26,861 bases of DNA, from contig JAMOSO010000057.1 of assembly GCA_027063065.1 (NCBI GenBank), forward strand, positions 1-26,861, read 5' to 3'. The stretch is from Planctomycetota bacterium. GTDB taxonomy: Bacteria; Planctomycetota; JAMOSO01. A program made the translations under genes and the position numbers. How positions within the stretch are numbered: the stretch's first letter is position 1; every line of letters starts with the position of its first letter. The notes under the pieces were generated by a model. That model saw nothing but the letters and a program-made list of their open reading frames with translations, did not search any database and was not told where the DNA came from. Below, piece by piece: positions 4,546 to 24,339 of this stretch.

Positions 4546-7500
4546 ATGAATACACAAAATAAAACTGATAACTTTTTTGAGCTTGCCGAACAACGAGCGT
4601 CTGAATTTTCTTTACTAAAGGGTGTCAACCCAAGTTCACACGAGCGGCAAAAGCATGAAGTCGAATTAGCCCTAGAAGGCCTTTTAGACAAAAAAACCAT
4701 AGAAAGCACAACAAATCGGCTAAAAACACTAGATGTAGACAGCTATATCGCCGAAACCGTTGAACCTTCCGAGCAAAAAAATCGCCTAGGGTTTAAAGCT
4801 GTTTTAAAACAATTAAAAATAAACATCATTAAAGAAACTTCTATGGGGCCACTATATTGTGCCGAAGTAGAAATGGACCTTCAAGGTCAAGAACGCCGTT
4901 TATGCCTTTTGGCACAAGAAAGAACCGCCAACAACGGTGTATGGGCTCCAGAACATCATAATAAAGCAATTGAATTAGTACGAAATTATGCCCAATATGC
5001 CATTCCCGTTGTTTGCTTTATCGACACTCCCGGTGCAGATGCTGGCGAAATAGCCAACGCCAATAACCAAGCACATTCTATCTCGCATTTTATTGCAGAA
5101 ATGGCCAATGTGGATATCCCAACTGTAGGTATTATTTTAGGTAATGGCTACTCAGGTGGCGCAATACCATTAGCCACAACTAATCTTTTATTGTCTGTAC
5201 GCGATGGCGTCTTTAACACTATCCAACCAAAAGGATTAGCCGCCATTGCCCGCAAGTTTGACTTATCTTGGCAAGAATGCGCAAGCTATGTAGGCGTAAG
5301 CTCTTACGAATTATATCAACAAGGCTATATCGATGGCATTATCGATTATGTACCCGGAGAAAAAGGCCCTCAACTAGAAAACCTACGCAATGCTATCACA
5401 TCTGCCATAATAGCCATTGAAAAACGCTCTTTGCAGTTTGTAAAAAATACAGATGGCATAGTCGAACATTACTTAGCTAGTTTAAATCGTTATTTAGATC
5501 CATCAGAAAAATTGCAAGAATTTGAAAATCATTCTTACTTAAATTTAACTAAACACCCTACAGAACATTTAAATGTTTTTGGCATCACATATCGTTATTT
5601 AAGATATTTAAGCTTACGCAGTCGTATCAGCTCTACTGTCAGTGCCAATTTTTCCCGTTCAACCAGTTTGGCAACACCTAAGGGAGACTTATCCCAACGC
5701 GTCAAAGAAGAACTAGAACACGCCTTTAAAAACTGGCAAGAAAACCCCCTATTAATACGTTATGATGATGAATTATCTAAAAGTTATAAAACATATATAA
5801 ACCGTCAAGAACACAGTAGTGACCAACGCGGTAAATTATCCAAATTGATATTTGGCGATCCTGCCGAAAACCTCAAAAAAGCAAAATCTGAATTATACCT
5901 TAGCTACTGTTTTCATTTGCATAATTTATGGAAAGCTGGCAGTCAAAATAACTTTTTAGCCCTTTTACAATATTTGAGCTCCGAAAACATCAAATCCACA
6001 GAAAAAGACCCCAACGAAATGACAGTATTAGATGTCATTAGTGCTGATGAATTTCGTGAAGGAATGTTAAGAGAATGCAAAAACTTTATTATATTTGACC
6101 AAGTCTACGATCAAATAATTACTGATTTAAGGCCTATTGCCAAAGAAGCTAAAGAAACTAACACCATTTCACGCCAATCGGTAGGTGATTTATTAGAATC
6201 TGCATTGCACAGTGCCGCTGCCAAATTAGGCAATATGTTAAAAGAAGATGAAGCATCAGATTTTGAACTTAAAAAACAATTTTATGCCTGGCTCAAAATC
6301 TTATTAAACAACTCACAAATGAGTGATTTTATTCGCCCTGTACAAGAGTGGAAAAAAATTCAATATCCCCGCATTTCAGAACCTTTATTTGCGATTGTAA
6401 CTTTTATGTTTGAACACTTATTAGTTGAATATTATCGTGCAGAAAGCGAAGGTGTAAATTTTAACGGTAAAATTAAATTGCGTAACATAGGTATGAAAGA
6501 TTTTTGGAACCGCCTTAATACCGCATACACTGACTTATTAATAACTGATATATTAATCAACGATAAACGCAGTAAAAATACACGTTTTGAATCATTTAAA
6601 GGTGAATTTTTAAGCGATTTCCATGAATTAGACCCTGATTTAATGACAGCTGATCCTGTTAATTTTCCAGGATTTAGAATCTCAATTGAGCAAGCATTAT
6701 CAAAAGGTATCAAACCATGCGGTACAATCACAGGCATTGCTAAATTAAAAGATTGCAAAGAAAACACTAATATCGGAGTCATTATATCTAATTTAGACTT
6801 CCAAGCGGGCGCATTTGATATGGCCTCTGCACAAAAATTTTGTAATTTATTATTAAAATGTGCAAAGCACAGTTTACCTGTAGTGGCTTTTATCTCATCT
6901 GGCGGCATGCAAACCAAAGAAGGTGCAGGCTCTTTATTTTCTATGGCCATAGTAAATGATCGTATAACTCGTTTTGTGCGTGATAATGACCTTCCTGTAA
7001 TATGCTTTGGATTTGGCGATTGTACTGGTGGCGCACAAGCATCTTTTGTAACACACCCATTAGTACAAACTTATTACTTTAGTGGTACTAATATGCCATT
7101 TGCCGGACAAATAGTTGTACCTAGTTACTTGCCAACCACTACTACCTTATCTAATTATTTATCCACTAACGAAGGTTCAATGCAAGGATTAGTTAAGCAT
7201 CCATTCAACCCAGATATTGATGCTCAACTGCGTGAAATTGATCCAAATATCCCAATCCCATCCGAAACTGTTAGCGATGTTTGTAATCGAGTATTGCAAG
7301 GCTCTTATGTTCAAGAAGAATTAGACTTAAACAACTCTTTTACCGATGAACGCTCATTGATAAAACCAGTTAAAAAAGTTTTGATTCACGCACGTGGTTG
7401 TACGGCATCTAAATTAATCCGCATAGCCCAACAAGAAAACATTGCCGTAGTATTAGTGCAATCCGACCCTGATATGGACTCAATCGTCGCAGAACAATTA

Positions 7501-9105
7501 ACCAAAAATGATACATTAATCTGTATTGGTGGCAACACTCCTGACGAAAGCTATCTAAATGCCGAGTCTGTACTGCGTATTGCACAACAAGAAAATGTCG
7601 ATGCAATTCATCCAGGCATTGGCTTTTTATCCGAAAACGCCGATTTTGCTCATATGTGCCGTAACCGTGGGTTAAATTTCATTGGACCTTGGGCATCATC
7701 TATGGAATTAATGGGCAATAAATCAAACGCTATCGATACCTCTATGCGATGTGGCGTACCTGTAGTACCTGGCTCTCACGGCATTTTGCCAGACTTTGAA
7801 ACAGGTATGCAAGTTGCCGATAAAATAGGCTATCCAGTATTATTAAAAGCTGTACATGGTGGCGGTGGTAAAGGTATACAAGTCGTAGAAAAACCCGAAG
7901 ATTTTAGAGAATTATTTTTTACTATTTCCTCAGAAGCTCGCGCAGCATTTGGCTCTGGTGATGTATACTTAGAAAAATTTGTAACTAATTTACGTCATGT
8001 AGAAATTCAAATTTTACGAGATACCCACGGTAACTGTCGCATACTAGGATTGCGTGATTGTTCTGTACAACGCAATAATCAAAAAATTATTGAAGAATCA
8101 GCCTCGACAATGCTCCCTAAAAACTTAGAACAAGACGTTTACAAATACGCCGCGTTAATCGCCAACGAAATCGATTACATAGGCGCTGGTACCGTTGAAT
8201 TTATCTATGATTTAGATAACAATGCTGTTTATTTTATGGAGACAAACACCCGCTTGCAGGTCGAACATCCCGTCACAGAAAAAACAAGCGGAGTAGATAT
8301 AGTAGCTCGCCAATTTGCTATTGCCGGCGGAGCAGACATCAGCGATATTAGTCCCGCATCTAACGGATATGCCATAGAAGCACGCATCACTGCCGAGCGC
8401 ACTAGCGTAGATGACGGCGAAATCAAATTTATACCAACTCCTGGAAATGTTACTAAATTTAAAATTCCAACCAATGACAATATTTCTATTGTAAAAATGG
8501 TTGATGCCGGTAAAGCCATTACACCTTATTATGACTCCTTAATAGCCCAAGTTATCGCAACTGGCAAGGATAGAAACGAAGCCGCTGATAATTTATTAAA
8601 AGCACTAGAAGGCACATCCATAGAAGGTGTACACACTAACATCCCATTAGTTAAACGCATTTTAAAAGACAAAACATTCCGTAACGGTAAATACAACACT
8701 CAATATTTAAATGGCTTATTAGAGAATATTGATATCGAAGAAATGATTACCGAAGGCGATAAAGCATCTGGCAATACATCCATAAGTTTAGATCGCTCTG
8801 CAATCGAAATAGAAGGTAGCGAAGAAATCAAAGTAATCAGCCCTTCTACTGGTGTATTTTACGATGCTCCTTCTCCTGCCGAACCATGCTTTGCCCCTGT
8901 AGGTTCAATAATTAAGACAAATCAAACAATATGTTTATTAGAAGCCATGAAATTATTTAGCCCATTAACTTTAGACTCTTTTAACTCTGAAGAAGCATAC
9001 TTATATAATCCTGAACAAAATTTTAAAATAGTCAGGGTTATCCCTACCTCTGGACAAGCTGTTAATAAAGGTGATTTATTAATGGTAATTTGCCCTTGCG
9101 ATTAA
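4546..9105 (+). CDS. single-chain acetyl/acyl-CoA carboxylase (CTalpha-CTbeta-BC-BCCP fusion)
   Basis: A 1519-residue cytoplasmic biotin enzyme expected to make malonyl-CoA (or a related acyl-CoA product) for fatty-acid synthesis. Domains in order: (1) about 1-300, AccA-like carboxyltransferase alpha with IDTPGAD (159-165) and GNGYSGGA (199-206). (2) About 300-690, mostly charged and helical, with no family I recognise and no AccD zinc ribbon. (3) About 690-925, AccD-like beta half with SSGGMQTKEGAGS (784-796) and CTGGAQASF (826-834). (4) About 942-1390, biotin carboxylase with the glycine loop around K1109 and the active-site stretch METNTRLQVEHP (1231-1242, including E1232, N1234, R1236, E1240). 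(5) About 1440-1519, biotinyl domain with EAMKL and biotin acceptor K1469. Alpha precedes beta, the reverse of eukaryotic and AccD5-type CT. AGGATG lies before the ATG. Propionyl-CoA or long-chain acyl-CoA could be the real substrate. Confidence 0.92.
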   Translation: MNTQNKTDNFFELAEQRASEFSLLKGVNPSSHERQKHEVELALEGLLDKKTIESTTNRLKTLDVDSYIAETVEPSEQKNRLGFKAVLKQLKINIIKETSMGPLYCAEVEMDLQGQERRLCLLAQERTANNGVWAPEHHNKAIELVRNYAQYAIPVVCFIDTPGADAGEIANANNQAHSISHFIAEMANVDIPTVGIILGNGYSGGAIPLATTNLLLSVRDGVFNTIQPKGLAAIARKFDLSWQECASYVGVSSYELYQQGYIDGIIDYVPGEKGPQLENLRNAITSAIIAIEKRSLQFVKNTDGIVEHYLASLNRYLDPSEKLQEFENHSYLNLTKHPTEHLNVFGITYRYLRYLSLRSRISSTVSANFSRSTSLATPKGDLSQRVKEELEHAFKNWQENPLLIRYDDELSKSYKTYINRQEHSSDQRGKLSKLIFGDPAENLKKAKSELYLSYCFHLHNLWKAGSQNNFLALLQYLSSENIKSTEKDPNEMTVLDVISADEFREGMLRECKNFIIFDQVYDQIITDLRPIAKEAKETNTISRQSVGDLLESALHSAAAKLGNMLKEDEASDFELKKQFYAWLKILLNNSQMSDFIRPVQEWKKIQYPRISEPLFAIVTFMFEHLLVEYYRAESEGVNFNGKIKLRNIGMKDFWNRLNTAYTDLLITDILINDKRSKNTRFESFKGEFLSDFHELDPDLMTADPVNFPGFRISIEQALSKGIKPCGTITGIAKLKDCKENTNIGVIISNLDFQAGAFDMASAQKFCNLLLKCAKHSLPVVAFISSGGMQTKEGAGSLFSMAIVNDRITRFVRDNDLPVICFGFGDCTGGAQASFVTHPLVQTYYFSGTNMPFAGQIVVPSYLPTTTTLSNYLSTNEGSMQGLVKHPFNPDIDAQLREIDPNIPIPSETVSDVCNRVLQGSYVQEELDLNNSFTDERSLIKPVKKVLIHARGCTASKLIRIAQQENIAVVLVQSDPDMDSIVAEQLTKNDTLICIGGNTPDESYLNAESVLRIAQQENVDAIHPGIGFLSENADFAHMCRNRGLNFIGPWASSMELMGNKSNAIDTSMRCGVPVVPGSHGILPDFETGMQVADKIGYPVLLKAVHGGGGKGIQVVEKPEDFRELFFTISSEARAAFGSGDVYLEKFVTNLRHVEIQILRDTHGNCRILGLRDCSVQRNNQKIIEESASTMLPKNLEQDVYKYAALIANEIDYIGAGTVEFIYDLDNNAVYFMETNTRLQVEHPVTEKTSGVDIVARQFAIAGGADISDISPASNGYAIEARITAERTSVDDGEIKFIPTPGNVTKFKIPTNDNISIVKMVDAGKAITPYYDSLIAQVIATGKDRNEAADNLLKALEGTSIEGVHTNIPLVKRILKDKTFRNGKYNTQYLNGLLENIDIEEMITEGDKASGNTSISLDRSAIEIEGSEEIKVISPSTGVFYDAPSPAEPCFAPVGSIIKTNQTICLLEAMKLFSPLTLDSFNSEEAYLYNPEQNFKIVRVIPTSGQAVNKGDLLMVICPCD

Positions 9106-10661: not shown

Positions 10662-11015
10662 ATGAAAATAGCAATATCTTGCAAAGGCCCTAGTATTGAC
10701 GATTCATTTGACAGTCATTTTGGACGCGCATCTTACTTCCAAATCTTTGAAGACAACAAATGGCATAGCTTTGACAATCGAGAAAACGCCAATGCTGCCC
10801 AAGGCGCTGGCATCAGCACAGCACAAAGCATCATCGATATGGGTGTAGATGTAATCATCACAGGCTCACTTGGCCCTAAGGCTAGCCGAGTAATAGCAGA
10901 TAGCGACATACAAGTATTTTTATCAGACCTACCAAGCATAAAAGAAAACTTGTTACAATTTGCACCTAAACTTGGCTTATCAATCACACCAGAAACAATG
11001 GAAGCAAAAAAATGA
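10662..11015 (+). CDS. NifX/NafY-like (dinitrogenase FeMo-cofactor domain) ORP-type protein
   Basis: A 117-residue single-domain protein of the NifX/NafY/VnfX-like fold, the family that includes the Mo-Cu orange protein ORP of Desulfovibrio. The family pattern is visible in DSHFGRASYFQIF near the N-terminus and AAQGAGISTAQSI followed by MGVDVIITGSLGPKA in the middle. These proteins bind metal-sulfur cofactors; a Mo-Cu cluster here is inferred from context only. The ATG at 10662 is preceded by AAAGGAG and is the first start downstream of the predicted sigma-54 transcript start. It is the first gene of the operon, and its stop overlaps the next start by 4 bases (ATGA). No nitrogenase genes are nearby, so nitrogen fixation is not implied. 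Confidence 0.88.
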   Translation: MKIAISCKGPSIDDSFDSHFGRASYFQIFEDNKWHSFDNRENANAAQGAGISTAQSIIDMGVDVIITGSLGPKASRVIADSDIQVFLSDLPSIKENLLQFAPKLGLSITPETMEAKK

Positions 11016-11863
11016 AAATAGCCTTTGCTTCTGGCAAAGGCGGAACTGGCAAAAGCACAATAGCCAGAACCTTTGCAAACTATATAGCCAAGGACAAACA
11101 TGTTAGCCTCATTGATGCCGATGTAGAAGAGCCTAACCAATTATTGTTTTTTAAAGCATCTACAACCGAAGCGTCAAAACCCGTCAGTTTGCCAATACCA
11201 GTAATCGACAACGACATCTGTAGCAAATGTGGCGCTTGTGTAAAATTTTGCAATTACAATGCGCTATCACTCAATAAAAAAGGCGTAACAGTTTTTCCAG
11301 AACTATGCCATGCCTGTGGAGGTTGCAGTATGGTATGCCCTATCAATTGCATAAGCGAAACACCACACGAAATTGGCGAAACAACCTTAGCACACAACAA
11401 AAACATCAGCCTTATTCAAGGCAAACTCGCCATCGGATCTAGCCACGCCACCCCCCTAATAGAAGAGCTCTTAAAACGCGCTCCACAAAATAAAACAACA
11501 ATTATCGACTCGCCACCCGGATCTGCATGTTCTTTAATGGCCGTTGCCAATGCAGTAGATGCAATTGTGTTGGTAGCCGAACCCACCCCTTTTGGGCTAG
11601 CCAATTTAGAAACTGTTGTAGATGTATGTGAAGAGCTTGAATTATTATTTGGAGTAGTAATTAACCGATGCAACATGGGCAATACATGCGTATTAGATTT
11701 TTGTCAAAAACACGACATTGAAATACTTGCCGAGATACCATGGTATTACGATGTAGCTAGCTCTTGCCAGCCAATATCGCAATTAGAAAGCCATTTTAAT
11801 ACCCAAAACAATCCTATGCAAAAATTAGCCGAAGCCGTATCAAAATGGGAGGCAGAATGTTAA
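11012..11863 (+). CDS. MRP/MinD-family P-loop ATPase with inserted 2[4Fe-4S] ferredoxin domain (first copy)
   Basis: A 283-residue MinD/ParA-type ATPase. The deviant Walker A GKGGTGKS is at 8-15. A ferredoxin insert carries two CxxCxxCxxxC sets (C70, C73, C76, C80; C99, C102, C105, C109), predicted to hold two [4Fe-4S] clusters. TTIIDSPPGSACS further on is the Walker A' or switch region. Desulfovibrio ORP complexes contain two such ATPases (DVU2103/DVU2104 type), and this is one of the pair. The role there is unsettled: handling or inserting a metal-sulfur cofactor, or redox-linked ATPase partnering. Start and stop overlap both neighbours, so translation is probably coupled to the NifX-like gene before it and the paralogue after it. 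Confidence 0.9.
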   Translation: MKIAFASGKGGTGKSTIARTFANYIAKDKHVSLIDADVEEPNQLLFFKASTTEASKPVSLPIPVIDNDICSKCGACVKFCNYNALSLNKKGVTVFPELCHACGGCSMVCPINCISETPHEIGETTLAHNKNISLIQGKLAIGSSHATPLIEELLKRAPQNKTTIIDSPPGSACSLMAVANAVDAIVLVAEPTPFGLANLETVVDVCEELELLFGVVINRCNMGNTCVLDFCQKHDIEILAEIPWYYDVASSCQPISQLESHFNTQNNPMQKLAEAVSKWEAEC

Positions 11864-12735
11864 AAGAAATTGTTATATTAAGCGGCAAAGGCGGAACTGG
11901 CAAAACGTCAATAACGGCTGCCATAAGCAATATGCTATCACAAAAGCAAAAAATCATTATCGCCGATTGTGATACTGACGCTACAAATTTACATCAAATT
12001 TTACAACCAACCCTAATTGATAAAAACGATTTTTATAGCGGTAAAATTGCGCGTATCAAACAAGATACCTGTACAAGCTGTGGCAAATGCGTCAAAGTTT
12101 GTAGATTTTCGGCAATAGAAACATTTAACCATGGCGAACAAACTAGAATCAATTCCAAAAAATGTGAAGGCTGTGGTGTTTGCGACTTGGTTTGCTATCC
12201 AACTCGTTCAATAATTTTTAAAGACCGACTTGTTGGCAATATTAAAACTTCACAAACACCTGCAGGCATTTTAGTACATGGTGGATTATTGCCAGGCGGA
12301 GAAAACTCTGGACACTTAGTAACTGCTATAAGAAAAAAAGCCCGTGACTTAGCCAACACCGAAAACGCCACAACCATTTTAATTGATGGACCTCCAGGGA
12401 TTGGCTGCCAAAGCATAGCATCATTAACCGGCGTAACTGAGGCAATTTTAGTAAGCGAGCCAACCGTATCAGCAATCCATGACACTGAACGCATTATAGA
12501 ACTATGCAAACATTTTAATATCCCTGCAACATTAACCGTAAATAAAGCAGATATTAATGCAGAACTAAGCAAAAAATTGCATCAATTAGCCAGCAAAAAT
12601 AACATTAAAATCGCACCGAGCATCCCATATGACAAAGAAGTTATCAATGCCCAACTAAAAGGCGAAAGTTTTATTTTAAACAAAAACACATCGGCATCTA
12701 TTGCCCTAAATAATTTTTTTAAAACTGTTTTTTAA
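11857..12735 (+). CDS. MRP/MinD-family P-loop ATPase with inserted 2[4Fe-4S] ferredoxin domain (second copy)
   Basis: A 292-residue paralogue of the preceding ATPase, with the same architecture: Walker A GKGGTGKT (10-17), two cysteine sets (C72, C75, C78, C82; C103, C106, C109, C113) and TILIDGPPGIGC. I chose the ATG at 11857 because GGGAGG stands 4 bases before it; an upstream in-frame ATG at 11845 would overlap that ribosome site. It overlaps the first ATPase by 7 bases, so the pair is probably made in equal amounts and may form a heterodimer, as MinD-fold ATPases dimerise around ATP. It is the second ORP-type ATPase, and the pairing of two distinct copies is a hallmark of these clusters. 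Confidence 0.9.
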   Translation: MLKEIVILSGKGGTGKTSITAAISNMLSQKQKIIIADCDTDATNLHQILQPTLIDKNDFYSGKIARIKQDTCTSCGKCVKVCRFSAIETFNHGEQTRINSKKCEGCGVCDLVCYPTRSIIFKDRLVGNIKTSQTPAGILVHGGLLPGGENSGHLVTAIRKKARDLANTENATTILIDGPPGIGCQSIASLTGVTEAILVSEPTVSAIHDTERIIELCKHFNIPATLTVNKADINAELSKKLHQLASKNNIKIAPSIPYDKEVINAQLKGESFILNKNTSASIALNNFFKTVF

Positions 12736-19679: not shown

Positions 19680-20702
19680 ATGACAAACAACTCTAAACCC
19701 TTACTGTTAAGTGGTATACAACCATCTGGCAATTTAATGATTGCCAATTATATAGGTGCAATTCGCAACTGGGTGGATTTGCAAAATCAATACAATTGTT
19801 ATTTTATGTTGGCTGACTTACACGCCATCACTGTAACTCAAGAACCTCAAGACTTATTAAAAAATTGTTACGATTTTATTGCCCTATATATAGCTTGTGG
19901 CATAAATCCTGACCAAAATACTATCTTCGTGCAATCACATGTTTCTGGGCATGCAGAACTAGCTTGGCTATTAAATTGTTATACACAAATGGGCGAGTTA
20001 AATCGTATGACACAATTTAAAGATAAAAGCCAAAAACATGCCAAAAATATTAATGTTGGATTATATAGTTATCCTGTATTAATGGCTGCCGATATCTTAC
20101 TTTACAATGCTGATTTAGTGCCTGTAGGTCATGACCAAAAACAACATTTAGAATTAACTCGCGACATTGCCAATAGAATCAACAACAGGCATGGAGAACT
20201 TTTTACAATCCCAGAACCATATATCGCCAAATCAGGCGCGCGCATTATGAGTTTACAAGATCCTAACTCTAAAATGTCTAAATCAGATAAAAATGTTAAC
20301 AACTATATTGGTTTATTAGACGACCCAAAAGTGATTATGAAAAAATTTAAAAAGGCAGTAACTGACTCTGGCGACACAATACGCTATGAGCCTGAAACCA
20401 AACCTGCTATTTCTAATTTAATAGAAATTAGACATTGTGTAACTGGCGAAAGTATTGCCGATATAGAAAAAAACTACGAAGGCAAAATGTATGGTCATCT
20501 TAAAATAGACTTGGCAGAAGCTGTAATAGAATTTCTACAACCAGTACAAGAACGTTTTAATCAATTACGCCAAGACAACACAGAACTAAATATTATTTTA
20601 AAACGTGGCCAAGAAGAAGCTAATAAACGTGCCGAAACTATTTTAAATAAAATGCGCCAAACAATTGGTTTTATTCCTAATATAAAAAATGTTTGTTTAT
20701 AG
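19680..20702 (+). CDS. trpS: tryptophan--tRNA ligase
   Basis: A 340-residue class I aminoacyl-tRNA synthetase charging tRNA-Trp. The HIGH-equivalent region is PSGNLMIANYIGA (15-27). KMSKS (198-202) is perfect, and MAADILLYNADLVPVG in the middle is the tryptophan-pocket region. Length matches the bacterial family. It leads a compact plus-strand operon; only 3 bases separate its stop from the start of the ScpA-MurD gene. No T-box or trp leader structure can be seen in the short 5' region. Confidence 0.96.
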   Translation: MTNNSKPLLLSGIQPSGNLMIANYIGAIRNWVDLQNQYNCYFMLADLHAITVTQEPQDLLKNCYDFIALYIACGINPDQNTIFVQSHVSGHAELAWLLNCYTQMGELNRMTQFKDKSQKHAKNINVGLYSYPVLMAADILLYNADLVPVGHDQKQHLELTRDIANRINNRHGELFTIPEPYIAKSGARIMSLQDPNSKMSKSDKNVNNYIGLLDDPKVIMKKFKKAVTDSGDTIRYEPETKPAISNLIEIRHCVTGESIADIEKNYEGKMYGHLKIDLAEAVIEFLQPVQERFNQLRQDNTELNIILKRGQEEANKRAETILNKMRQTIGFIPNIKNVCL

Positions 20703-20705
20703 TAT

Positions 20706-22910
20706 ATGACATATCGCATTTCTTTAGATCGTTTTGAAGGCCCTATGGATCTTCTTTTGTACTTAATTAAGCGAGAAGAAGTAGAAATTACCGAAGTGCC
20801 TATTTTAAAAATATGCGATCAATTTCTGGATTATGTCAAAACCATGAACGAACTAGATATTAATATCGCTGGTGATTTTATGGTGATGGCATCCACTTTA
20901 ATGGAAATTAAAAGCCGTATGCTTTTGCCAGAAGAAGAAACAGACGAACAAGAAGAAGAATTTGACGACCCACGCATAAGTCTAGTAAAACAATTATTAG
21001 AATATCGCAAATTTAAAGAACGCACTCAACTTTTAAGAGATAATTTTGACAAAGCTGCCACTAGATTTGGGCGACCAAGCATATCAACGATACAAGAAAG
21101 TGATAAGGTAGAAAAGCCTATAGAACTAGGCAATATTGGTTTATTTGATTTATTTGCTGCCTACCAAAATTTAATTAAACATACTGAAACCCCCACAACC
21201 ACAATTATTGACGACAATATATCTCAAGAAAAACATATGTTTTTGGTGATAGATTTAGTCAAACAAAAACATAGCATTCGTTTTGAAGAGCTATTTCCAA
21301 CAAATGCTAGTCGAGTATATATGGCTGGAACTTTTATATCTATTTTAGAACTAGCCAAACAAAAAAAGATATTGATATATCAGGGTTCATCATTTTCTGA
21401 GATACGTGTTACCACACCAGAATACCACCGAGATTATATCTCTAATTTAGAAAGTTTTAATAGACTAAGAGATAAAAATATAACTGTTTTAGGGTTGGGA
21501 AGATTTGGCGGTGGCACATCATTAATTAGATATCTAGCCGAACATGGCGCAAAGGTAAGCGTAAGCGACTCTGGCGATAAAGCCGAGTTATCCAAATCTA
21601 TACAAGCCTTGGACGATCTAAATATAACATTTAATTTTGAAGAACACCAACCAAAGGATATCGAAAAAGCCGATATTGTATTTGTTAATCCAGCCATTAA
21701 ACCAAATGCCAAGATATTAAAAACTGCCAAAGATATAGGTGTAGAACTAGACGCCGATATTAATTATTTTTTAAGACATACACCTGCAAAAGTTATGGGC
21801 GTTACTGGCTCTAATGGCAAAACCACAACAACCACATTGCTTGGCAATATGCTAAAACTGCAAGATAATGACACCTTAATTGCCGGCAATCTAGGTGAGC
21901 CATTTTTACATCGCCTAGACTATTTAACAGACGATGATTCGGTAGTATTAGAGCTTAGCAGTTTTCAATTAGATAGATTAAGTTGGATGGGAATTTCTCC
22001 TAGCATTGCTATTATTACAAATTTATCACCCAACCATCTGGATTGGCATCGCACAATGAGCGAATACGCCAAAGCTAAATACAATATTTTAAAGTATCAA
22101 CACAAAGACGATTTAGCTATTTTAAATTATGATGATAAAACTTTAGCCGATTGGGGTCAACGCTGTCCTGCTCAAACGGTTTTCTTTTCGTGTAGCCAAG
22201 CGATAGAAGGTTATTTTTTACAAAATAACAATGTGATACTACGCAAAAACGGTATAGATAAAATATTATTTGAACTACCTTCGCACACATTAAAAGGCAA
22301 GCATAACCTTAGCAATATTATGGCCGCTATCACATCTGCATATCTTTCTGGCGTAAGTATACCAAAAATTATCTCAGCTATACAAAATTATAAACCACTA
22401 GCTCACCGTCTAGAAAACTTAGGCACACATAATAATATAACCTTTATAAACGACTCCAAATCAACCACACCCGAATCTATGTCTGCGGCTTGTCGTGCTT
22501 TTGACAATAATGTTATTTTACTAGCTGGTGGATATGACAAAGGTGCCGACTTTAAAACAGCGGCTACACAAGCCGCACCACATTTAAAATATGCGTTTTT
22601 ATTTGGTGACACTTCACATAAAATAGGCAGGCATTTACGCAAAGCCAAAGAAAGCGAAAACACCAATACAACAAAAATTATTTGTTATGAAAAAGATTTA
22701 GAAACAGCTTTTAATAAAGCAATTGAAATAGCGCAAGCCAACGATACAATTTTATTAAGCCCTGGTTCTGCTAGCTTTGGATTGTTTAAAGACTTTGAAG
22801 AACGTGGACAAGCATTTAAAAACTTAGTCAACCAATATCGAAAATCAAATTTAACCCCAACCAGTAGCCCTACAAATGCTACATCCCTTGAAAGGAAAAA
22901 TGATGAATAA
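20706..22910 (+). CDS. ScpA-MurD fusion: condensin subunit joined to UDP-MurNAc-Ala-Glu ligase
   Basis: One 734-residue frame encodes two proteins that are normally separate. Residues 1-237 are ScpA, the kleisin of SMC-ScpAB: N-terminal RFEGPMDLLLYLI (9-21), the IAGDFMVMASTLMEIKSRMLL stretch (54-74; helical SMC-neck binder), an acidic linker, and a C-terminal winged helix ending FSEIRV. A linker of about 20 residues follows. Residues 258-720 are complete MurD, which adds D-Glu to UDP-MurNAc-L-Ala: GLGRFGGG (263-270), ATP loop GVTGSNGKTTTT (365-376, K372), ELSSFQLDRL, NLSPNHLDWH (439-448), AGGYDKGADF and SPGSASFGLFKDF (685-697). I see no stop, and no ATG or GTG start with a ribosome site, near the junction, so separate MurD translation is unlikely. 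No scpB is in the window. Confidence 0.93.
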   Translation: MTYRISLDRFEGPMDLLLYLIKREEVEITEVPILKICDQFLDYVKTMNELDINIAGDFMVMASTLMEIKSRMLLPEEETDEQEEEFDDPRISLVKQLLEYRKFKERTQLLRDNFDKAATRFGRPSISTIQESDKVEKPIELGNIGLFDLFAAYQNLIKHTETPTTTIIDDNISQEKHMFLVIDLVKQKHSIRFEELFPTNASRVYMAGTFISILELAKQKKILIYQGSSFSEIRVTTPEYHRDYISNLESFNRLRDKNITVLGLGRFGGGTSLIRYLAEHGAKVSVSDSGDKAELSKSIQALDDLNITFNFEEHQPKDIEKADIVFVNPAIKPNAKILKTAKDIGVELDADINYFLRHTPAKVMGVTGSNGKTTTTTLLGNMLKLQDNDTLIAGNLGEPFLHRLDYLTDDDSVVLELSSFQLDRLSWMGISPSIAIITNLSPNHLDWHRTMSEYAKAKYNILKYQHKDDLAILNYDDKTLADWGQRCPAQTVFFSCSQAIEGYFLQNNNVILRKNGIDKILFELPSHTLKGKHNLSNIMAAITSAYLSGVSIPKIISAIQNYKPLAHRLENLGTHNNITFINDSKSTTPESMSAACRAFDNNVILLAGGYDKGADFKTAATQAAPHLKYAFLFGDTSHKIGRHLRKAKESENTNTTKIICYEKDLETAFNKAIEIAQANDTILLSPGSASFGLFKDFEERGQAFKNLVNQYRKSNLTPTSSPTNATSLERKNDE

Positions 22911-24339
22911 TCACGACACTTATTCTTCTCCTCTTTCATCACGCTATGCCAGCGATGAAATGTTGTACAACTTTTCTGATAACAAAAAATTTCGCACTTG
23001 GCGTCAAATGTGGATTTCGCTTGCAGAACGCGAAAAAGAACTAGGCATTGATATTAGTGACGAACAAATAGCCGAATTAAAAGCAAACGCCGAAAATATA
23101 AATTATGAAACTGCCGCTGCTTTTGAAAAGAAATTTCGTCATGATGTGATGGCTCATGTACATACTTTTGGTGAAGCAGCACCTAATGCAAAAGGTATTA
23201 TTCACCTTGGAGCTACCTCAGCATTTGTAGGTGATAATACAGATTTGGTTCAAATTCGTGATGGTTTATTGATTATTCGTAAACGTTTAATCAGTGTTAT
23301 TAATGCATTAGCTTTATTTGCTAAAGAATATGCCGGCTTACCCACTTTAGGTTTTACACATTTTCAAAGCGCCCAACCTACAACTGTAGGAAAACGTGCC
23401 ACATTATGGCTATATGAATTTTTAACCGATTTAGAAGAACTAGAGTTTAACCTAGAAACTTTGCGTTTTCGTGGCGTTAAAGGCACAACTGGAACTCAAG
23501 CCAGTTTTGTACAGCTATTTAATGGCGATAATCAAAAAATAGATATTTTAGCTACCAATGTTGCTAAAGATATGGGCTTTGATGAAGTTATACCTGTTAC
23601 AGGTCAAACATATAGCCGTAAAACTGATGCTAGAAGCTTAACCTTAATGTCTGCATTAGCTCAATCTGCATCTAAATTTGCCAATGATATACGTCTGCTA
23701 CAACATAAAAAAGAAATTGAAGAACCATTTGAAAAAAACCAAATAGGCTCATCAGCTATGGCTTATAAACGCAACCCTATGCGGTCTGAACGTATTTGCG
23801 CATTATCGCGATACGTTATTGTTGACAGTTTAAATCCCGCATTTACAGCTGCCACCCAATGGTTTGAACGCACATTAGATGATAGCGCCAATAAACGTAT
23901 CGCTATACCAGAAGCCTTTTTAGCCGTTGATGCTATTTTAAGTATAGTTGAAAATGTAGCTAGTGGCTTAGTAGTGCATGAAAAAGTAATCGAAAAACAT
24001 CTAAATCAAGAACTACCTTTTATGATGACTGAAGACATTATGATGGAGGCTTCAAAACATGGGGCAGACCGTCAAGAACTACATGAAAAAATACGTGAAT
24101 TTTCTATGATGGCAGCCACTGCCATTAATGACGAAGGCAAAGACAACCCCTTGTTGGACTTAATTGCCAATGAGCCACTATTTACCGGAGCTAAAGACCA
24201 AATCGAAACTCTAAAAGATGCAAAACGATATACGGGACGTGCGGAAGAACAAACCCACACATTTTTAGACAATTGGGTTAAACCCTTTTTAGATAAATAT
24301 GCTGATGAAATTTCCAGTGGTGCAACATTAAAAGTATAA
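22903..24339 (+). CDS. purB: adenylosuccinate lyase
   Basis: A 478-residue fumarase-superfamily enzyme of purine synthesis, cleaving SAICAR and adenylosuccinate to release fumarate. The signature loop is GSSAMAYKRNP (282-292). HLGATSAFVGDN and THFQSAQPTTVGKR are the other conserved catalytic regions. The start is one of two adjacent ATGs (22900 or 22903); I prefer 22903, which is 6 bases from AAGGA. It overlaps the end of the ScpA-MurD frame by 8 bases, and its own stop shares a base with tmk, so the operon is tightly coupled. The N-terminus (YSSPLSSRYAS) resembles the type seen in Bacteroidetes, Firmicutes and planctomycete enzymes. Confidence 0.96.
   Translation: MNNHDTYSSPLSSRYASDEMLYNFSDNKKFRTWRQMWISLAEREKELGIDISDEQIAELKANAENINYETAAAFEKKFRHDVMAHVHTFGEAAPNAKGIIHLGATSAFVGDNTDLVQIRDGLLIIRKRLISVINALALFAKEYAGLPTLGFTHFQSAQPTTVGKRATLWLYEFLTDLEELEFNLETLRFRGVKGTTGTQASFVQLFNGDNQKIDILATNVAKDMGFDEVIPVTGQTYSRKTDARSLTLMSALAQSASKFANDIRLLQHKKEIEEPFEKNQIGSSAMAYKRNPMRSERICALSRYVIVDSLNPAFTAATQWFERTLDDSANKRIAIPEAFLAVDAILSIVENVASGLVVHEKVIEKHLNQELPFMMTEDIMMEASKHGADRQELHEKIREFSMMAATAINDEGKDNPLLDLIANEPLFTGAKDQIETLKDAKRYTGRAEEQTHTFLDNWVKPFLDKYADEISSGATLKV

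Follow-up and report, generated by a model that had tools for sequence, protein, structure and literature searches.

A single reading frame joins ScpA and MurD in a Planctomycetota genome

Results

Both halves of the fused protein are complete

The window, a stretch of 26,861 nucleotides from contig 57 of a Planctomycetota assembly, contains a single uninterrupted frame in which a complete ScpA kleisin (residues 1-236) is connected by about 17 linker residues to a complete MurD (residues ~254-709). An earlier note on this DNA had described an uninterrupted ScpA-MurD frame, and we recovered it with exactly the same limits, as a frame of 734 residues on the forward strand (Table 1). The fusion is real in the assembled sequence, unusual, and known from this contig alone. 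We regard it as fairly probable that this is a genuine, recent and tolerated fusion in one Planctomycetota lineage, producing one bifunctional protein in which the link itself is most likely neutral.

Table 1. Features of the scpA-murD region of the window
Feature	Position	Strand	Description
trpS	19680..20702	+	directly upstream of the fusion, gap of 3 nt
scpA-murD fusion gene	20706..22910	+	ATG to TAA, 734 codons, computed mass 82.9 kDa
ScpA kleisin part	20706..21413	+	residues 1-236: N-terminal Smc-neck-binding domain, middle ScpB-binding region, C-terminal winged-helix domain
Linker	21414..21464	+	residues 237-253 (TPEYHRDYISNLESFNR); no in-frame start codon
MurD part	21465..22832	+	residues 254-709, all three Mur-ligase domains
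C-terminal tail	22833..22907	+	residues 710-734, low-complexity; overlaps the probable purB start at 22903
purB	22903..24339	+	directly downstream; probable start 22903 with Shine-Dalgarno-like GAAAGG

The Pfam family SMC_ScpA (PF02616) matched residues 20-236 with 130.3 bits against a curated cut-off of 24.6, covering positions 1-230 of a 232-position profile. The NCBIfam ScpA equivalog models (PRK00104.1) aligned end to end (residues 2-239) and missed their cut-off (best 203.5 bits vs 315), which is a naming threshold and not a defining trait of ScpA. Solved ScpA structures were matched by both the N-terminal (3w6j, 3zgx, 4i98) and the C-terminal (5xg3, 5h66) domain, over residues 2-159 and 164-240, and the half is ~35-43% identical to the stand-alone ScpA of relatives. 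It was assigned to ScpA on the basis of the Pfam and solved-structure matches, synteny and the partner genes. Like ScpA of Smc-ScpAB, it matches the family over its full length with N-terminal, middle and winged-helix regions, has trpS as a neighbor, and occurs in a genome that encodes Smc and ScpB elsewhere. Stand-alone ScpA ends in a short or disordered tail, whereas here an entire Mur ligase follows at the C-terminus. When the whole protein was modelled with AlphaFold, the ScpA half was modelled without aligned relatives, and its low score is uninformative.

The MurD half was matched by MurD-like_N (residues 257-347), Mur_ligase_M (366-544) and Mur_ligase_C (567-686) in Pfam, and by the NCBIfam murD equivalog TIGR01087 over residues 258-709 (395.7 bits vs a cut-off of 211.95, profile positions 1-440 of 441). 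It contains TGSNGKTT at 367-374 (the P-loop), NHLD at 443-446, K458, HRLE at 567-570, NDSK at 582-585 and LLSP at 683-686, among which we take the ATP-binding loop, the carbamylated-lysine site and the substrate motifs to be represented. Aligned with 29 further MurD homologues, the protein keeps the catalytic motifs. Solved MurD structures match residues 253-710, AlphaFold gave most of this part a pLDDT of 80-97, and the top PDB matches of the model are all MurD. Among the best 80 loci listed, the closest MurD loci in named records are mostly from Planctomycetota, the best belonging to the anammox group (Scalindua, Kuenenia, Brocadia). The half therefore resembles MurD in its three domains and catalytic motifs, with ~42% identity to MurD of Brocadiia-type Planctomycetota, and differs from stand-alone MurD in having no start codon of its own and beginning behind a kleisin domain. 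Pfam, TIGR01087 and the alignments agree with the earlier claim that both halves are complete in their motifs.

The join lies in the ScpA tail and lacks a start for MurD

Conservation with the stand-alone ScpA of relatives stops at residue 236, and conservation with MurD begins at residue ~254. Within the phylum, the tails beyond the position of residue 236 range from 2 to 183 residues among 20 stand-alone ScpA proteins, which places the join in a tolerant part of ScpA. In six planctomycetotal loci the C-terminal tails of ScpA are 69-183 residues long, many of them enriched in acidic residues and proline. The linker occupies the place of the variable tail of ScpA and of the start of MurD. No recognizable feature was found in it, AlphaFold confidence is low at residues 240-251, and GC and GC3 are even across the join.

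An open linker alone is weak evidence of fusion, as a 22-codon stretch would be open by chance about 1 time in 5 at the local base composition. The case is instead built on the absent MurD start. Between residues 223 and 264 the frame contains no ATG, GTG or TTG, and the TTG at residue 264, the first in-frame start past the join, already lies within the first strand of MurD. The nearest in-frame starts before the join are ATG 178 (position 21237), with TTG 180 and GTG 181 beside it, ATG 206 (21321) and TTG 223 (21372), inside the C-terminal winged-helix domain of ScpA. In no frame is there an ATG or TTG close to the beginning of MurD, and the sole start in the other frames near the join is a GTG at 21406, whose frame is closed by a stop at 21448. 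These results bear out the statement of the earlier note that MurD has no likely internal start.

Partner genes in the host genome

The host assembly comprises 2.13 Mb in 71 contigs and is 90.5% complete and 0.2% contaminated. A separate scpA or murD elsewhere in the genome had been proposed as a check on the fusion. None was found in the 90.5% complete assembly, where the sole ScpA match and the sole MurD-level match both lie in the fused gene, and this favors a real fusion. Smc (1192 aa, 1040.9 bits) and ScpB (120.5 bits vs a cut-off of 89.2) are present, and MurC, MurE, MurF, MurG, MraY and FtsW are all encoded. Since these partner genes are present and no second copy of either half was found in the assembly, Smc-ScpAB and the wall pathway appear to depend on the fused gene. 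The genuine murC adjoins murG on contig 65; a second MurC-like ligase on contig 22 (L077 672-2042) scored 302.9 bits against the MurC cut-off of 335.1.

Distribution of the fusion

A fused homologue would be expected at the head of a score-ordered match list. None of the matches listed for 392 Planctomycetota genomes extends over both halves, and scpA and murD are separate. The fusion was likewise absent among the matches listed for 75 genomes of the class that holds the best MurD matches. In an alignment scan of GTDB representatives, through which phyla other than Planctomycetota were sampled, scpA and murD were again separate at all of the best 80 MurD loci. Nothing was found in 397 genomes of another class at E <= 1e-116, a result that counts little since a distant fusion could miss this threshold, nor in a single-protein scan of the genome collection with peptide patterns, which are poorly conserved. 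No ScpA was found in viral contigs. Conservation across a clade, suggested earlier as a check, was thus not seen: no other genome searched has the fusion, and the host's class is represented in the collection by the host genome alone. The fusion has been seen once, in one genome and on one contig.

Gene neighborhood and origin

Adjacency of trpS and scpA was also found in three relatives. Since trpS directly precedes scpA both here and in these relatives, scpA occupies its old position. Neither trpS nor scpA was found beside murD in the MurD loci of the relatives examined, so we rejected the idea that scpA and murD were ancestral neighbors. As the two genes are not adjacent in any relative examined, murD was probably relocated before fusing, and the simplest history is probably that murD moved behind scpA, after which the intervening stop and start were lost.

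The host dcw cluster on contig 21 (L076 9050-11268) holds murE, murF, mraY and ftsW, with no murD between mraY and ftsW. We considered whether this gap is the sign of a recent move and rejected it, because the murD of relatives is also without a detected dcw neighbor: no dcw genes flank 39 MurD loci of relatives within 1.5 kb per side where the contig allows, and wider contexts share no dcw gene with the host cluster. In another planctomycetotal genome (L089 4498-7374), murD is immediately preceded by a purB whose product is 54% identical to the PurB of the window, where purB comes right after the fusion.

A tolerated fusion and its alternatives

In the reading we prefer, a stand-alone murD would have been placed immediately after scpA in the trpS-scpA unit before the stop of scpA and the start of murD disappeared within the non-essential ScpA tail. 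Genes on the same strand flank the fusion on both sides. The gene would be translated as one bifunctional protein. Judging from family membership and the partner genes, its ScpA half would close the Smc-ScpAB ring together with the Smc and ScpB encoded elsewhere, and the MurD half would add D-glutamate to UDP-MurNAc-L-Ala as a tethered, otherwise ordinary enzyme. ScpA uses its two ends to bind one Smc at its neck and the other at its head cap (PMC4442127). In B. subtilis, ScpA with a C-terminal YFP still forms SMC foci (PMC1188057), which makes a C-terminal MurD on ScpA plausible. Should ScpA and MurD both function within a single chain, cells would be able to live with a sole kleisin joined to a sole MurD, and this would show how much the C-terminus of ScpA and the N-terminus of MurD can tolerate.

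The sequence could also mislead. An indel or a chimeric junction may have turned two end-to-end or overlapping genes into one, and the fusion does come from one contig of a single assembly in 71 pieces. One indel at about 21409-21447 could in principle recreate two overlapping genes, in which ScpA has its own end and MurD begins at the GTG at 21406, but there is no long homopolymer where it would be needed. Without an indel, at least two base errors would be required to erase both a stop and a start, and no ATG or TTG near the MurD start is available in any frame. A chimera would have to join the gene ends exactly, in frame, on the same strand and with the same composition. We therefore consider an artefact improbable. 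It is also unlikely, in our view, that the frame is fused and partly separate products are made from it, with an N-terminally extended MurD freed by initiation inside the ScpA C-terminal domain or by proteolysis of the linker. In favor are the in-frame starts in that domain, ATG 178 following a purine-rich stretch, and the low confidence with which the linker is predicted. Against it, the winged-helix fragment left on the products would be useless, and the internal starts have no clear Shine-Dalgarno sequence of the kind present at several genes of the window, a weak objection since the scpA start has none either.

A further possibility is that the link is functional, MurD being tethered to each Smc-ScpAB so that wall-precursor synthesis and chromosome organization share abundance or location; the earlier note had proposed a coupling of segregation to wall synthesis. 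The product of MurD is a diffusible cytoplasmic precursor, and siting the enzyme brings no obvious benefit. On the other side, the sole copies of ScpA and MurD are physically linked with both halves intact, and fusions of wall-pathway enzymes are known: MurE-MurF in Bordetella, MurB-MurC in Verrucomicrobium spinosum and MurC-Ddl in Chlamydia (PMC6420597). These resemble the present protein in joining a Mur ligase to another protein in one chain, and they include cases from the wider Planctomycetes-Verrucomicrobia-Chlamydiae group. In the bifunctional Mur enzymes found, however, both partners belong to the wall pathway, whereas the partner here is the chromosome-segregation protein ScpA. The linker offers no recognizable feature, and the literature searched holds no link between ScpA and MurD, as had been stated earlier. 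Coupling finds nothing to support it beyond the fusion itself, which is conserved in no genome searched, and we think it doubtful. That MurD is physically part of Smc-ScpAB as a conserved trait of an unsampled Planctomycetota class, with one polypeptide tying wall-precursor synthesis to chromosome organization, seems less probable still.

A neutral or near-neutral link is the best reading because no conservation points to selection for it; at most, the link may fix co-expression in a small genome. Neutrality is argued from absent conservation in genomes outside the host's class, and within that unsampled class the fusion may be an old and conserved trait. Its retention in sister species would make it a direct physical connection from condensin to the synthesis of wall precursors. 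Between the two readings in the earlier note, the alternative that adjacent genes fused neutrally agrees better with the data than coupling does. It needs one amendment: scpA and murD were not found as neighbors in the relatives examined, and murD was probably relocated before it fused.

Other frames in the window

The same contig contains a second large fusion. A 1519-aa frame (4546-9105, forward strand) that combines carboxyltransferase-type domains (ACCA/Carboxyl_trans) with a biotin carboxylase is probably a single-chain acyl-CoA carboxylase. Further along the same strand, positions 10662-12735 encode a FeMo-cofactor-type protein and, behind it, a tandem pair of MinD/NUBPL-type ATPases that both contain an inserted 4Fe-4S ferredoxin segment.
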